The notes under the pieces were generated by a model, which was not told the origin of the DNA, did no database searches, and saw only the letters and a program-made list of their open reading frames with translations. This document shows positions 1,241-10,320 of a DNA stretch of 64,000 bases, piece after piece. The stretch comes from Meiothermus sp. (GTDB lineage: Bacteria; Deinococcota; Deinococci; Deinococcales; Thermaceae), in contig NZ_JANWVH010000003.1 of the NCBI RefSeq assembly GCF_025056915.1, positions 1-64,000 of the forward strand. Reading direction: 5' to 3'. How positions within the stretch are numbered: the stretch's first letter is position 1; the number at the start of each line of letters is the position of its first letter. A program made the position numbers and the translations under genes.

Positions 1241-2107
1241 TTGCGTCCCCAAGCTTTTACGGTGCTCGAGCTGTTGCTGGCTCTGCTGGTGCTGGTGATA
1301 GTAATGTCCATTGCCTTCAACACCAGCATTCAGGGCCTTCAACTCAACCAGTCGAACGAAGCCATCAGCACGGCTCAGAACAAAGCCCGGCGGGTGCTGG
1401 AAGTGCTCAGCCAGGATTTGCGTACAGCCGCCTTTGCCATCGTAACCAATGCTCCTTTCAACAGCAACACCACCAGTATCTCTTTCGCCCAGGTGGCCGG
1501 CGGCGCCGGCTATACGGTGAGCGCAGTGGCAGGTAGCACCCTTACGCTGGTCAGCAACTCCGCCACCCTGGCCAGCGAGATTCCCGTGGGGAGCCGACTG
1601 GTGGTTGTGGATGGCAATGGCAACGCCGTACTGACCCGCACCAGCAGCCTGCCCGTAGCGAGCGGTTTGAGTACGTACACCCTGACCACCACCTGCAACA
1701 ACCTCCCCGTCACCGCAACCTCGCAGACCCTGGCCTCGGTCATAAACCTGATGGGATATAGCTACGATACGGCTAACCAGAAGCTGGTTTATCAGGTTCA
1801 AGGGGATGCAGCTACAACCGATGTGGCCTTTGATGTGACCAACTTTCGCATTGACTACGTCTATCAGCGCCGCACGAGTACCGCAGTTACTGAGGAGCGC
1901 AACCCCAGTGGCTATCTGGTCAGTGGTCGCGTGCAGCCCTACTTTACCAGTGGTGGAGCGGAGTTCTTCCTGCGTCGCGTGCAATTCACCCTGGGTATCC
2001 AGATACCCCTACGGGGACGGAATGTCGAGCGTACCTACACAGGACAGGTAGATATGATCAACACCCTTTACTACCAAGCAAAGGTGGTGAATGTATGCAA
2101 CCCATGA
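1241..2107 (+). CDS. Prepilin-like protein, PilW type
   Basis: QA|FTVLELLLALLVLVIVMS N-terminus; TTG start. Confidence 0.8.
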   Translation: MRPQAFTVLELLLALLVLVIVMSIAFNTSIQGLQLNQSNEAISTAQNKARRVLEVLSQDLRTAAFAIVTNAPFNSNTTSISFAQVAGGAGYTVSAVAGSTLTLVSNSATLASEIPVGSRLVVVDGNGNAVLTRTSSLPVASGLSTYTLTTTCNNLPVTATSQTLASVINLMGYSYDTANQKLVYQVQGDAATTDVAFDVTNFRIDYVYQRRTSTAVTEERNPSGYLVSGRVQPYFTSGGAEFFLRRVQFTLGIQIPLRGRNVERTYTGQVDMINTLYYQAKVVNVCNP

Positions 2108-4008
2108 AGCACCCCCAGGGCATTGCCATTGTGGTGGCCCTGACCGTTATCTTGTTGCTAAGCGTAATCAGCGGCCTTATTTTCACCCGAACCATGAACG
2201 ACCTGCGCACCAGTCGGGACAACACCGCACTGGCCCAGGCCATTAACCTGGCCCGGGGGGGAGCTGTGGCCGCTTCGGCCTTGCTATCCAACGAAGTGCG
2301 GGCCAGCTTAGAGAGCATTGCCCGCTCTGCCAACCCCAGCGCGGGCGGCATCAGCACCAGCGATGTCTGGTACTACGGGGGCAATAGCACCCAGCCCATC
2401 CCGGCCACGGTTGCTACACGACTGGCCATCCTGGCCGCCAATCTACAGACCAGTGTCAACAGCACGATTTGCAGTCGAAACTTTGCCCCAGATGGCTCTG
2501 GGGCCACTGTGCAGGTGCGAATCTTCTTTACCACGGCAGCGGCCTGTGGCCAGGCTTTCCCCTCAGCCGCCCAGCTACCCTCGGGGTATGTGGTGGATAA
2601 CGACAACAACCCCAACACGCCGCTCACCCGCCAGGTGCAAGGTTATGCGCTGCCCTACGTAATGGTGGTGACTGCCTCGCCCGGCACTCCCTACCAGCGC
2701 AACGTTCTGGTACAGGGTGAGTATCGCTTTTTGCTGACCAACGGTAGCTTTGCCCGTTATGCCCTGTTTACCAACCAGCACCGAACCCGTTCCAACACAG
2801 CAGTCTGGTTTACCGGCAGTACGCTGTTTGATGGGCCGGTGCATACCAACGAACGCTTCCGGTTTTCCTTCAATCCGTGGTTTGGGGGCTATGTGACCAG
2901 TGCGGGTTGCTCCGATGCCGGGGCAAGCAGTTGTAATGGCACTATCAGTCCTGGGGCCCATTTTGGCTCGGGTAACAACACCACCTTCCTTTCACCCTCC
3001 CAGATGGCCAACCCCAATGCCCCTACCTGGACCAGCGGGGGTATCACCCATGCGCCTGTATTCGAGGGCAATCCCAAGGTCAACTGGCAGGAACCTTTTA
3101 TTCCCATGCCGGTCAACGCCCAGAATCAGCGTGACGCGGCAACCGTGGGGGGACTTCTTCTCAACTTCAATGTGGCCCGCCTAACCCTGTATGCTGGCGA
3201 TGCGACCGGAGCGCGCCCGACCTGTAATAGTTCCGGGGTGTGCAGCCCGGCTACCTCGACGCATCAGTATATTGAGGTTTGTCGTACCGCAGCCTGCACC
3301 GGTAGCGACCGTATTCTTTACCGCTATGCAGCCGACGGCATCCTCTACCGTCACAACGGGAGCTGGCCTGGCGTGGTGGAGCGGGCCAGTTTCAACGGGA
3401 TGATCTTTGCTGAAGGGAGCATCAGCAACCTTACGGGCCCGGCTCGCACCGATAGCACCGACCCGGACACGGCGCCTCCTGCCCTGGCCCATTTCGCCCA
3501 GCTGACCGTGGCCAATGCTGGCAGCGGACGCAATATTCAGATTCAGGGCGATTTGAAGTATCAGAACCCTGCTTGCAGCGGGAACCCGTCCCGGAGCGGC
3601 AACACTGTTACCCGTGCCACCTGTAATAACCTTACGGCGGACAACATCCTGGGGGTGTATAGCCAGGATGGGGATATTCTGCTGGGCGACGGCACCAACA
3701 ACTCCCTGCAAGACCTCACCGTGCACGGGGTGCTCATGACCTCCAGAGGCGAGGTTGCCGTGCAGAATTTCAGCACTATTGCGCCGCGGGGTTCCATTCG
3801 ACTGCAAGGAGGTATTATCCAGTACACCTACGGAGCCTTCGGTCAGTTCAATAGTTCTACCGGAACCATGACGCAAGGCTACGCCCGCCAGTTCACCTAC
3901 GATCCCCGGATGCAAGACCGCGCACCCCCTTTTTTTCCAACGACCGGAGTTGTGCAGGTCAGTGTGGCCACCCCCCTCAGCTTCGGCCAGCGAGAGCAGG
4001 TGTATTAG
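2095..4008 (+). CDS. Large PilX/ComZ-like minor pilin (DUF4900-like)
   Basis: Hydrophobic pilin helix QG|IAIVVALTVILLLSVISG without Glu5; long beta-rich C-terminal part; same gene order as recalled Thermus pilA1-A2-A3-comZ. Confidence 0.75.
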   Translation: MQPMKHPQGIAIVVALTVILLLSVISGLIFTRTMNDLRTSRDNTALAQAINLARGGAVAASALLSNEVRASLESIARSANPSAGGISTSDVWYYGGNSTQPIPATVATRLAILAANLQTSVNSTICSRNFAPDGSGATVQVRIFFTTAAACGQAFPSAAQLPSGYVVDNDNNPNTPLTRQVQGYALPYVMVVTASPGTPYQRNVLVQGEYRFLLTNGSFARYALFTNQHRTRSNTAVWFTGSTLFDGPVHTNERFRFSFNPWFGGYVTSAGCSDAGASSCNGTISPGAHFGSGNNTTFLSPSQMANPNAPTWTSGGITHAPVFEGNPKVNWQEPFIPMPVNAQNQRDAATVGGLLLNFNVARLTLYAGDATGARPTCNSSGVCSPATSTHQYIEVCRTAACTGSDRILYRYAADGILYRHNGSWPGVVERASFNGMIFAEGSISNLTGPARTDSTDPDTAPPALAHFAQLTVANAGSGRNIQIQGDLKYQNPACSGNPSRSGNTVTRATCNNLTADNILGVYSQDGDILLGDGTNNSLQDLTVHGVLMTSRGEVAVQNFSTIAPRGSIRLQGGIIQYTYGAFGQFNSSTGTMTQGYARQFTYDPRMQDRAPPFFPTTGVVQVSVATPLSFGQREQVY

Positions 4009-4036: not shown

Positions 4037-4621
4037 ATGCGCCTGCTGATTGCCGACGACCACCCCCTGTTCCGCGTGGGCCTGCGGGCCGCCCTCGAGC
4101 GCGAGGGGTTCGAGGTGGTGGGGGAGGCCAACGATGGCCAGGAAGCCCTGAACCTGTGCTTGCAACTGCTGCCGGACGGGGTGGTCCTGGATGTGCGGAT
4201 GCCGCACATGGACGGGATTACCACCACACGTATGCTTCGTGAGCATCGCTACCTGGGCCTGATTGCCCTCCTGACCACCTTCAACGAGCCGGTCTTGGTT
4301 CAGCAGGCGGCCTATGCAGGCGCCGATGCCTACTGGTCGAAGGAGCTACCCCCCGAGGCCCTGGCCGAGCGCCTGCGCCGGCTCAGCCTGGGGCAAGAGC
4401 CCCGCCTGCGGGCGCCCGAGCTGCCCAAACTGACCGTGCGTGAGCAGGAGGTCTTGCAGTGGATGGCCCAGGGGCTTTCGACCAAAGAAATCGCCCGCCA
4501 TCTGCACATTTCGCCCGAAACCGTCAAGGATCACCTGGTGCGGCTCTACGAGAAACTCGAGGCCCGCAACCGCGTGGAGGCCCTCGAGCGCGCCCGCAGC
4601 CTGGGGCTGCTCAGCATTTGA
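4037..4621 (+). CDS. NarL/LuxR-family response regulator
   Basis: Receiver (DDHPLFRVGLRAALE..VVLDVRMPHMDG..K) plus LuxR HTH (LTVREQEVLQWMAQGLSTKEIARHLHISPETVKDHL). Confidence 0.92.
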   Translation: MRLLIADDHPLFRVGLRAALEREGFEVVGEANDGQEALNLCLQLLPDGVVLDVRMPHMDGITTTRMLREHRYLGLIALLTTFNEPVLVQQAAYAGADAYWSKELPPEALAERLRRLSLGQEPRLRAPELPKLTVREQEVLQWMAQGLSTKEIARHLHISPETVKDHLVRLYEKLEARNRVEALERARSLGLLSI

Positions 4622-4770: not shown

Positions 4771-6879
4771 ATGCCTAACACCAAGGGAATTACGCTGGTT
4801 TCGACGCTGGTGTTCATGTTTATCGTGATTATTCTGGTCAGTGTGGCCTCCCTCACCTCGCTCAACAACCGCCGCAACGCCCAGGATGCGCTGCGCACCT
4901 CGCAGGCCCAGTTTGCCGCCGAGGCGGGCCTCGAGCGGGCGGTGGCCCGGCTGTGGCACCAGGTGCTTTCGGAGGCCACCTCCTCCAGTGTGACCGGCTA
5001 CCGGCAGGCCCTGGAGCGGATGGGCCTGACCAATGGAACCACCATCAGTAGCCTGTTTGGTCAGCCCCAAAACCTTGGGGATGGAAGCCGCTTTGAGGTG
5101 CGGGTCTCCAGGCGTGACACCACCACCCCCGCCGGTGAACCCCAGATCGAGCTCACCGTCGTTTCGACCGGCACCCTCGCCGATGGAACCACCCGCCGCT
5201 TGCAGCAGGTATTCCGAGTTGCGCGGGCCCCATTTCCCTTCGATTATCCCTTTCTGACCAACAAAGCCGACTGCATTTTTTGCCACCTCGAGGTGCGCAG
5301 CATGGACGCCTTCCGGGGCGACCCCAACCCCAACGACCCCAGCACCTGGTGGCGGCGAATCAAGGTGGGGGTGCTGGAAGACCTGGTCATGCGCGATGAG
5401 CAGGAGGCGGGCATTGTGCACGGCTCGCTGGTCACCCGGGGCACCGTGCGCCAGCAGTATAGCGGTCGCCTCGAGCCCTCTACCCGCTACTTCACCACCC
5501 TCGAGCCAGGCCAGACCCGAATCCGTTCGGCCACGCCCATCCGCCCCACCCCCGCCGACTGCCGCCAGCCCAGCAACTGCGCCACCACCCAGAACCTGTA
5601 CTACAACTACCCGGACGGCAGCAACCTGGCTGCCTTCGGCAACCGCTACCCCGATGGCGAGCTACCCGACTTTTTCCCGCTGCCCATCCCCGACGATAAC
5701 AACAACCGCCTGATTGACGATGCCGAGTGGCTCGATGAGGTTCAGGCCAGCCTGGAAAACCGCAACGAAAACTATTTTGCGGGCAGCATCACCGCTCCTG
5801 CACGGGTCAACCCCAGCGACATCGCCTGGCCTGGGGGTTCCGCGCTGCAAACGCTCGACTCGGCAGCACTGGGCCTCTCCCGCAACAACGTCATCCTGGA
5901 CGGCTCGGTAACCCCCATCACCCTGAGCGGAACGGTGTTCATCAACGGCGACGTGGTCATCCGAGGCCGGGTGCGGGGCAGTGGAACCATCCTGGCTCGA
6001 GGCAATGTGTACATCCTCGGCGACCTGACCTACGACTGCGGGCAGGGCAGCACCCCGCAAGCCTGCGACTACCGGGAGCCGAGCCGCTTGCCGCAGCTCA
6101 ACCTGATTGCCGGGGGCAATACCCTGATGGGGGATTTCCTGAGTATAGATACTTTTACAGCGGAAAATCTCAACCTGCTCCAGGCCAATCGAATTCAACT
6201 GCCCATGGGGGCCTGTCGGGCCAACCCGGCGCAGCCTGGGTGTGGGAGCGGCGCATCGGTAACCTGGCAGCGTGATCCCCTCTACCGGCCCAACCTGACC
6301 CTGACCGAGGTGACCAACTTCAACCGCAGTGAGTTGCAGCGCTGGTTGCGCAACAACGCCTACCGGCCTCGCTTTTACACCTATGGCGAAAACGAGGTTT
6401 ACTTTGGCGATGGCTGTGAGCACGACCCCACGCGTTACAGCAGCTACCAGACCCTCCGGGCGGGGGCCCGGGTGCACACCTGCCAGGGGGATCGCTCGCT
6501 GGGCAGCGTAACGCTGAGCCAGGCTCAGGTGAACGCAATTCAAAGCCGCGCGGTGAGGTACGAGGTGACCTCGAGCTTCTTCGACAACACCTCCCTCAAG
6601 CAGCTCTGGAACGACTCGGCGCGCAACCGTCCGGCTGGCCCCCTTCGCACCGACGGGCTGCTCTACTCGGCCAACGCCATTTTCAGCGTGATTCAGAACG
6701 GTCGCGGCTACAACCTGGGGGGGCGCTGGGACCTGCGAGGGGCCCTGGTGGCGGCGGACACCGGCGTGCTGGCGCCGGTCAAGCTCGACATCTACCACGA
6801 TGCCCGTCTGCGGCCCCGCATTCCGGGGGGTCAGCAGGCCCAGCTCAGCCGGGGTATATGGGAAGTGGTGGGCCAGTGA
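4771..6879 (+). CDS. Large PilX-like pilin (DUF4900-like) with one CXXCH motif
   Basis: KG|ITLVSTLVFMFIVIILVSVASLTS pilin N-terminus; CIFCH at 5272-5286. Confidence 0.75.
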   Translation: MPNTKGITLVSTLVFMFIVIILVSVASLTSLNNRRNAQDALRTSQAQFAAEAGLERAVARLWHQVLSEATSSSVTGYRQALERMGLTNGTTISSLFGQPQNLGDGSRFEVRVSRRDTTTPAGEPQIELTVVSTGTLADGTTRRLQQVFRVARAPFPFDYPFLTNKADCIFCHLEVRSMDAFRGDPNPNDPSTWWRRIKVGVLEDLVMRDEQEAGIVHGSLVTRGTVRQQYSGRLEPSTRYFTTLEPGQTRIRSATPIRPTPADCRQPSNCATTQNLYYNYPDGSNLAAFGNRYPDGELPDFFPLPIPDDNNNRLIDDAEWLDEVQASLENRNENYFAGSITAPARVNPSDIAWPGGSALQTLDSAALGLSRNNVILDGSVTPITLSGTVFINGDVVIRGRVRGSGTILARGNVYILGDLTYDCGQGSTPQACDYREPSRLPQLNLIAGGNTLMGDFLSIDTFTAENLNLLQANRIQLPMGACRANPAQPGCGSGASVTWQRDPLYRPNLTLTEVTNFNRSELQRWLRNNAYRPRFYTYGENEVYFGDGCEHDPTRYSSYQTLRAGARVHTCQGDRSLGSVTLSQAQVNAIQSRAVRYEVTSSFFDNTSLKQLWNDSARNRPAGPLRTDGLLYSANAIFSVIQNGRGYNLGGRWDLRGALVAADTGVLAPVKLDIYHDARLRPRIPGGQQAQLSRGIWEVVGQ

Positions 6880-7331
6880 AAAGACTCTGCCCAAAGGGCG
6901 TCAGCCTGGTTGAGTTCCTGATTGTGCTGGCGGTGCTCGGCATCCTGCTGGGGGTGGGCTTGGTTTCGTTGCGGGCCTACCAGCAAAGCCTGGTGATTCG
7001 TGAAGCGGCGACCTTGGTGGCGACCGAGCTGCAAAGCATCCGCCAGCAGGCCCGGCGGCAGTCGGTCAACTTTTCCTTTCAGGCCAGCCCCAGCACCAGC
7101 AGCTACCGCGTGGGTCGCACCAGCCAGCTGGCCTCCCTCCCGAGCAAATCGCTGCCCTCAGGGGTGGTGTTTCAAAGCGTACCCTCGGGCGGTACCGTCC
7201 GATTCGATGCCCCCTATGGCATTGTGACCAGCGGAGCCAACAGCAGCTTCGTCTTGCGGGGGCCGGGCAACAGGGTGCTGAACGTCCACGTGGTGGGTCG
7301 AACCGGAAAGGTGGTGGTGCGTGCGCCGTAG
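6858..7331 (+). CDS. Prepilin-like protein, GspH/FimT type
   Basis: PKG|VSLVEFLIVLAVLGILLGVG. Confidence 0.85.
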   Translation: MGSGGPVKRLCPKGVSLVEFLIVLAVLGILLGVGLVSLRAYQQSLVIREAATLVATELQSIRQQARRQSVNFSFQASPSTSSYRVGRTSQLASLPSKSLPSGVVFQSVPSGGTVRFDAPYGIVTSGANSSFVLRGPGNRVLNVHVVGRTGKVVVRAP

Positions 7332-7695
7332 CGGTTTTTCTTTTGTGGAGGTGATGGTCGCTCTGGCCATTCTCTCCCTGACCATTTTGATTTTGACCTA
7401 TTTTGGCTCGAGCTTCACCCTCACCCGCAACGCCCAGATTGACACCCAGGCCCAGGCCTTTGCCCGGAGCTACTTCGACACCGTGCGGGCCAACTGGTCG
7501 AGCAAACAGGCTTTCAATGCTGCGGTGTTGCCCACGCTCACCCCGCCCAGCGGGTTCAGCAACCCCACGGCCAGCCTGAGCGCCGTCCAGACCATCGGAA
7601 CCCAGGTGGTGCTGCGCCGGATCACCCTGCAGTTCACCGGCCCGCAGAACCGCTCTTACCGCTTCTCCACCGAGGTGGTTCTGCCTCCTTTGTAG
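7321..7695 (+). CDS. Prepilin-like protein, PilV type
   Basis: RSG|FSFVEVMVALAILSLTIL. Confidence 0.85.
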   Translation: MRRSGFSFVEVMVALAILSLTILILTYFGSSFTLTRNAQIDTQAQAFARSYFDTVRANWSSKQAFNAAVLPTLTPPSGFSNPTASLSAVQTIGTQVVLRRITLQFTGPQNRSYRFSTEVVLPPL

Positions 7696-7702
7696 AGGTT
7701 GC

Positions 7703-8520
7703 ATGCGAACAACAGGCCTTACCCTCATTGAAATGCTGATTGCGGCCCTGGTGGGCGTGGCCATCCTGGGCTTGATTGCGGCCGGACTGCGCAGCAGCAG
7801 CGACAGCCTTCGGTTTGTGCAAAACTCCCAGCTCCTCACCGAAGACCTGCGCAACGCGGGCAACCTGGTGAGCGATTACATCGCCAAGGCCGCTTTTATC
7901 TATCCCCCCGGGGTGACCCTGACCATCGGCAGCACCGGGGGCTACACGGTGCGAAACCCCAACACCAACAACAATACCTGGCGCATCGGCCAAGACCCGG
8001 CCATTGCGCTGTTGTGGCCGCCCACGGTGGAGAATGGGGTGGAGGTGGTCAAGTTTGTGATGATCTACCCCCTCAACCGCGGCTGGGTGGTGAGCCAGGC
8101 CACAGGCGCCGAAAACCCCGGCCCCGACCCCGCCAACAACAACAAGTGGCTGCTGTACATCTATGAGCGCAACCTCCAGGTTGGCTCCAGCCGGCTTCCC
8201 AACGGACTGCCGCTCACCATTCCCACCGACCTGAGCGGTAGCTCGGGCAACCTGCTGGCCGACTATGTGCAGCCGGGGGGCTTTGCGGTGAGCTATAGCG
8301 ACTGCCTGGGCTTCGACGAAAATGGCCTGGCCACCGCAGCCCCCTGCCCCCCAACCCCCCCGACGCCCCTCCGTGCCGAGCACAGCGCCGCACGGGTGCG
8401 TTTTTCCCTGCAGGGTGAGATCCGCCAGGGTGGGCGGGACGCCCGCGTGCCCGCAAGCCCCCTTCGCTTTGAAGCGGCCCCCCGCAACCTGCCTCTTCGG
8501 CTGACCGAGGTTACCCTCAA

Positions 8521-8524
<4 letters not shown>
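7703..8524 (+). CDS. Prepilin-like protein, PilW type
   Basis: [21 protein letters not shown]. Confidence 0.85.

Positions 8525-10320
<1,796 letters not shown>

Follow-up and report, generated by a model that had tools for sequence, protein, structure and literature searches.

Whether a type IV pilin can itself carry a covalently attached heme is the question raised by one gene in a 64,000-nucleotide stretch of Meiothermus DNA (the window), which comes from a 3.0-Mb genome in 191 contigs with M. rufus and M. hypogaeus as close relatives. An earlier note on this DNA had drawn attention to a CXXCH sequence, the signature of heme c attachment, in a 702-aa pilin-like protein, and the reading frame confirms it: TGCATTTTTTGCCAC at 5272-5286 (+) reads in frame as C168-I-F-C171-H172 (Table 1). 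The window contains four copies of the degenerate DNA pattern for CXXCH where shuffles predict 4.4, and because it is no commoner than chance it is conservation alone that gives the motif its weight. Shuffling the residues of the 702-aa protein, which has 10 Cys and 6 His, produced a CXXCH in 16 of 20,000 shuffles. The protein begins with a prepilin-like N-terminus, MPNTKGITLVSTLVFMFIVIILVSVA, and continues into a long hydrophobic helix (residues 5-68 in an AlphaFold2 model), the combination expected of a type IV minor pilin. The label "PilX-like" given to it earlier is best taken as approximate, since the match to the Pfam family PilX_N, although present, scores 19.5 bits and falls under the curated cut-off of 25.5.

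Table 1. Position and basis of the features discussed (window coordinates; residue numbers refer to the 702-aa protein)
Feature	Position	Strand	Basis
Companion 637-aa DUF4900 large pilin, upstream minor-pilin cluster	2095..4008	+	Pfam DUF4900, E 4e-28
NarL-type response regulator, directly upstream	4037..4621	+	Pfam Response_reg and GerE
702-aa large minor pilin, family A	4771..6879	+	ORF; PilX_N-like N-terminus, predicted ComZ-like beta-solenoid
CXXCH, predicted heme c attachment site	5272..5286	+	in-frame reading
Probable disulfide C264-C270, independent of CXXCH	5560..5580	+	conserved 22/22; presence and absence in homologues (see text)
EF-hand-like calcium loop, predicted, D308-D-N-N-N-R-L-I-D-D-A-E319 (DDNNNRLIDDAE)	5692..5727	+	regular expression
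Second probable disulfide, C423-C432, in the solenoid	6037..6066	+	conservation 1.00 and 0.95 (39 sequences); kept in L028
Small minor pilin, GspH-like, second operon gene	6858..7331	+	Pfam N_methyl over cut-off, weak GspH match
Small minor pilin, third operon gene	7321..7695	+	Pfam N_methyl over cut-off
273-aa minor pilin, fourth operon gene	7703..8524	+	pilin-like N-terminus; same order in other genomes

Homologues were gathered from 111 genomes of the order and from one Deinococcus plasmid. All three residues of the motif are present in 38 of 39 aligned sequences (the window protein counted), a set that includes near-identical members and hence fewer than 39 independent lineages. Identity to the window protein among the homologues with CXXCH ranges from 89% down to 21%, with a median of about 32%, and the motif columns lie within the 24 best conserved of 542. 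Loss of the His or a Cys from orthologues had been named in advance as grounds for abandoning the heme proposal; the motif is instead retained through two divergent families. Family A comprises the Meiothermus orthologues (68–89% identity to the window protein), which include those of the named type strains M. rufus and M. hypogaeus, two genomes from another genus of the same taxonomic family (48–50%), single genomes at about 41–42%, a group near 30%, three proteins as long as 1111–1171 aa (26–30%) and a member from Deinococcus sp. KNUC1210 (35%). The divergent paralogues of family B have about 700–780 aa and are 21–25% identical to the window protein, and among them the motif is invariant (12/12 sequences). 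Comparison of the family profiles by hhalign, which superposes the CXXCH columns exactly (probability 99.9, E 3.8e-34), establishes at the sequence level that A and B are homologous. The two residues between the cysteines vary (IF, VF, LF, VL, SL, SF, VM, MY, IY and MF), which is what a heme attachment signature would lead one to expect. The DNA count, as high in the window as in its shuffles, had suggested a chance motif without function, but its retention by 38 of 39 members of two families at such low median identity refutes that reading, to which we give a negligible probability; heme c attachment is clearly likelier than a chance motif.

Searches for relatives beyond Deinococcota among plasmids, with three different queries and likewise with family B, returned one Deinococcus record only, no relatives were found in viral contigs, and a single scan of genome contigs gave matches in Meiothermus only. 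The Deinococcus record (L058:9001-11202) is the 431-kb plasmid unnamed7 of Deinococcus sp. KNUC1210, on which the family A gene lies together with three pilin genes. It is annotated there as a "polymer-forming cytoskeletal protein" with a start at 9040, which is probably too late because homology begins 5' of that position. In one genome (G042) the family B gene is broken over two contigs (G042:C67:10-2013 and G042:C156:3-1046); the larger piece contains one in-frame TAG, and either an assembly break or a decaying gene would give this pattern.

The sole exception among the 39 sequences proved informative. In L028 (G073:C43, 27% identity) the segment NGVFSN stands in place of C-X-X-C-H, so that G, S and N replace both cysteines and the histidine, yet C264, C270, C423 and C432 are all kept, as are the operon and the calcium-like loop described below; the same genome encodes, in addition, a family B protein in which CXXCH is present. 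The converse pattern is seen in L051-L053, where CXXCH is kept and C264/C270 are absent. Together these cases show that the motif evolves as a single unit apart from the other cysteines, and pairing of C168 or C171 with C264/C270 or with C423/C432 is unlikely, given that the sets are gained and lost separately. The joint loss also bears on the main rival to heme c, in which no heme is present: C168 and C171 would be joined in a disulfide, structural or redox-active, or would share a metal ion, for example zinc, with H172 and a fourth ligand. The other conserved cysteine pairs indicate that the protein folds in an oxidizing compartment, which speaks for this rival, but an invariant histidine beside the second cysteine would then be needless, and neither form of this rival readily explains why Cys, Cys and His disappeared together. 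For a metal site, no fourth conserved Cys or His is lost along with the motif, although Asp or Glu ligands could still serve.

The calcium-like loop in family A resembles an EF-hand, with the canonical ligand positions 1, 3, 5, 9 and 12 filled in the 702-aa protein, and a regular expression recovered it from 24 of 26 family A sequences; Pfam returned no EF-hand match. In family B a D-x-D-x-DG-x-x-DF pattern is found in 11 of 13 sequences. From these sequence patterns only, a calcium site in the same chain is predicted for both families. Retention of the loop in L028, which has no CXXCH, implies that the calcium site and the heme site need not occur together.

To place the motif within the protein, we modeled the 702-aa chain with AlphaFold2 from a 25-sequence alignment (mean pLDDT 88.4, pTM 0.82). 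In a block with a pLDDT of 92, strands 161-167 and 173-177 form a beta-hairpin, and CIFCH makes the turn that joins them. The CXXCH of cytochromes c usually begins a helix, whereas here it is modeled in a hairpin turn, which resembles a zinc-knuckle-like turn and in this respect favors the disulfide or metal alternative. No cytochrome c domain was matched by Pfam in any of 23 members, and outside CXXCH no Met or His that might serve as distal heme ligand is conserved through family A; both results lend the same alternative some weight. A heme at this site would accordingly be five-coordinate, unusually ligated or supplied with its second ligand by a partner pilin. A model of family B was left unused owing to low confidence in the CXXCH region (pLDDT about 45–50). 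A Foldseek search with the 702-aa model gave ComZ (6qvi) as the only strong PDB match (E 3.4e-07, probability 1.00), and the architecture is predicted to be ComZ-like, a pilin domain with an inserted beta-solenoid. The global TM-score against 6qvi is low (0.15/0.19), which means that domain placement relative to ComZ differs or is uncertain. By sequence, a PDB search found no solved relative and there was no significant match to ComZ.

We then considered whether heme could be attached. Until a type IV pilin is assembled, its C-terminal portion lies in the periplasm, a topology that suits cytochrome c maturation; the earlier claim that export permits such maturation thus holds, with export deduced from the pilin N-terminus. 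The check for a maturation system was also positive, as contig C136 carries CcmH and two Cytochrom_C_asm proteins (CcmC/CcmF-like, open frames of 230 and 701 aa), from which it follows that this Meiothermus genome encodes components of Ccm (System I). As CcmH was found in 108 of the 111 genomes of the order, Ccm is a necessary but not a discriminating condition. System I is reported to recognize little beyond CXXCH itself, and peptides of 12 residues containing the motif are modified (PMC3601427). With Ccm present and expected to act on an exported CXXCH, a heme-free disulfide or metal site becomes harder to maintain, and we consider it unlikely, though it deserves the most serious attention among the alternatives. 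Of the features that identify a c-type cytochrome, the protein thus has the CXXCH in an exported chain, conservation of the motif as a unit and the maturation genes, but neither a recognized cytochrome c domain nor a conserved Met/His distal ligand, and the heme c proposal of the earlier note is strengthened on the first three counts and weakened on the last two.

The gene neighborhood bears on where such a heme would sit. The 702-aa gene heads a four-gene operon in which three small minor pilins follow (6858-8524), so that the protein is encoded with other minor pilins; the last of these, of 273 aa, has no Pfam match. The combination of a large CXXCH pilin with small minor pilins recurs in several other genomes, including that on the Deinococcus plasmid, and the family B gene heads or sits within a similar pilin set (L146, L154). 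This arrangement of one large and several small minor pilins places families A and B in the position of a large GspK/PilX-type subunit, and from this position together with the resemblance to ComZ we infer a location at the pilus tip. Upstream of the response regulator and the 702-aa gene there is another cluster of minor pilins, the one that contains the DUF4900 protein. In the Meiothermus genome G040 (L146:5935-13221) the family A and B genes are about 3 kb apart, with the family B gene among the small pilins of the neighboring cluster; the 637-aa DUF4900 protein has no match in this genome, as if family B had replaced it.

The DUF4900 pilins and the ComZ-like large pilins served as controls. 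The companion 637-aa protein is without CXXCH, as the earlier note had stated, and a check of 29 sequences of its family, itself among them, found the motif in none. The companion is nonetheless encoded in a neighboring minor-pilin cluster, and in its family a hairpin ALFTNxH...WFT lies at a seemingly equivalent place. The motif is likewise absent from the ComZ-like large pilins examined (560-631 aa in Thermus, 587-612 aa in Meiothermus). These two sister families rule out that CXXCH is common to all large pilins and make it a property of families A and B.

Genes for response regulators or histidine kinases adjoin the pilin clusters in the window (4037-4621, +) and at L146, L148 and L149, and in G026, G034 and G040 such genes are neighbors of family A or B. 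They raise the alternative that the heme is redox-active and the tip serves extracellular electron transfer, or senses redox state or surface contact through the neighboring two-component system. A motif that stays whole across such divergent proteins would fit this function, as would the response regulator gene immediately before the 702-aa gene and the kinase and regulator genes near families A and B elsewhere. However, one heme per tip complex makes a conducting chain impossible, two-component genes flank clusters for other reasons too and nothing links a kinase to the pilin, and TfcP, the nearest published case, is judged to stand outside electron transport (PMC8833165); we regard this alternative as quite improbable. 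A broader version, in which A and B are an old Deinococcota lineage of cytochrome pilins with one covalent, redox-active heme c at the solenoid base, a tip that senses or exchanges electrons and a calcium site in the same chain, seems to us somewhat less remote but still doubtful. In G005 a fused cytochrome c (CBB3-like)/copper type II monooxygenase gene (L152:5099-6640) ends 13 bases before the CXXCH pilin. It was considered as a redox partner and set aside, as the arrangement is missing in G006 and G007.

Taken together, these data favor a reading that makes the 702-aa protein the large, tip-located member of a minor-pilin complex, with a single heme c attached by Ccm, acting as a structural or redox-responsive element and not as a wire; we give this a probability of roughly 0.6. 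The protein would occupy the GspK/PilX position in a tip complex with the three small minor pilins of its operon and would be built like ComZ of Thermus, as a pilin stem into which a beta-solenoid is inserted. System I would add the heme in the periplasm, once the chain is inserted in the membrane but not yet assembled into the pilus; C168 and C171 would hold it, and H172 would be its proximal ligand. Such a heme would be placed at the turn of the hairpin that leads the chain into the solenoid. We favor a structural or redox-responsive role over conduction since each chain has one heme and in view of the TfcP precedent, in which the heme of the Myxococcus protein is thought to stabilize it and a role in electron transport is judged absent (PMC8833165). 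The case is directly testable, with one gene, one site, a culturable genus and, in L028, a natural homologue without the site. If it is true, substrates of Ccm may hide in proteins without a cytochrome domain that are annotated as "polymer-forming cytoskeletal protein".

Among known systems, the grouping of the 702-aa gene with three smaller pilins in one operon recalls the GspH-I-J-K arrangement, and the 702-aa family gives weak matches to the N-terminal regions of PilX_N or GspK, all below curated cut-offs. To our knowledge, neither a solenoid insert nor a CXXCH is a feature of the GspK or PilX families. TfcP of Myxococcus xanthus is the only pilus-linked single-heme cytochrome that we found in the open-access literature, and it likewise has a single CXXCH and a link to type IV minor pilins, with which it shares an operon. 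TfcP is a separate protein, a cytochrome c that is soluble in the periplasm, has the cytochrome c fold and a His/Cys-ligated heme, and is not in the pilus (PMC8833165). The 702-aa protein does not answer to that description, to which a type I signal peptide also belongs: its CXXCH lies inside a pilin, behind a pilin N-terminus and with no cytochrome domain. A further parallel is calcium, which is bound by PilY1, the tip component that TfcP serves (PMC8833165), and for which family A has the EF-hand-like loop in the same chain. In the open-access papers searched we found no heme c pilin; a paper on a "pilin-cytochrome" (PMC7829351) was ruled out as precedent since the cytochromes there are separate and multiheme. 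The closest structural relative remains ComZ of Thermus thermophilus (PDB 6QVI), with its pilin helix, inserted beta-solenoid and proposed pilus-tip location (PMC6561018), and the 702-aa protein shares with it a large size, an N-terminal pilin helix and the inserted solenoid, differing in the CXXCH. Solenoid tip pilins of the ComZ type are thus already known, and what would be new is the predicted covalent heme on one of them, a heme c borne by the type IV pilin itself at the likely tip of the pilus.
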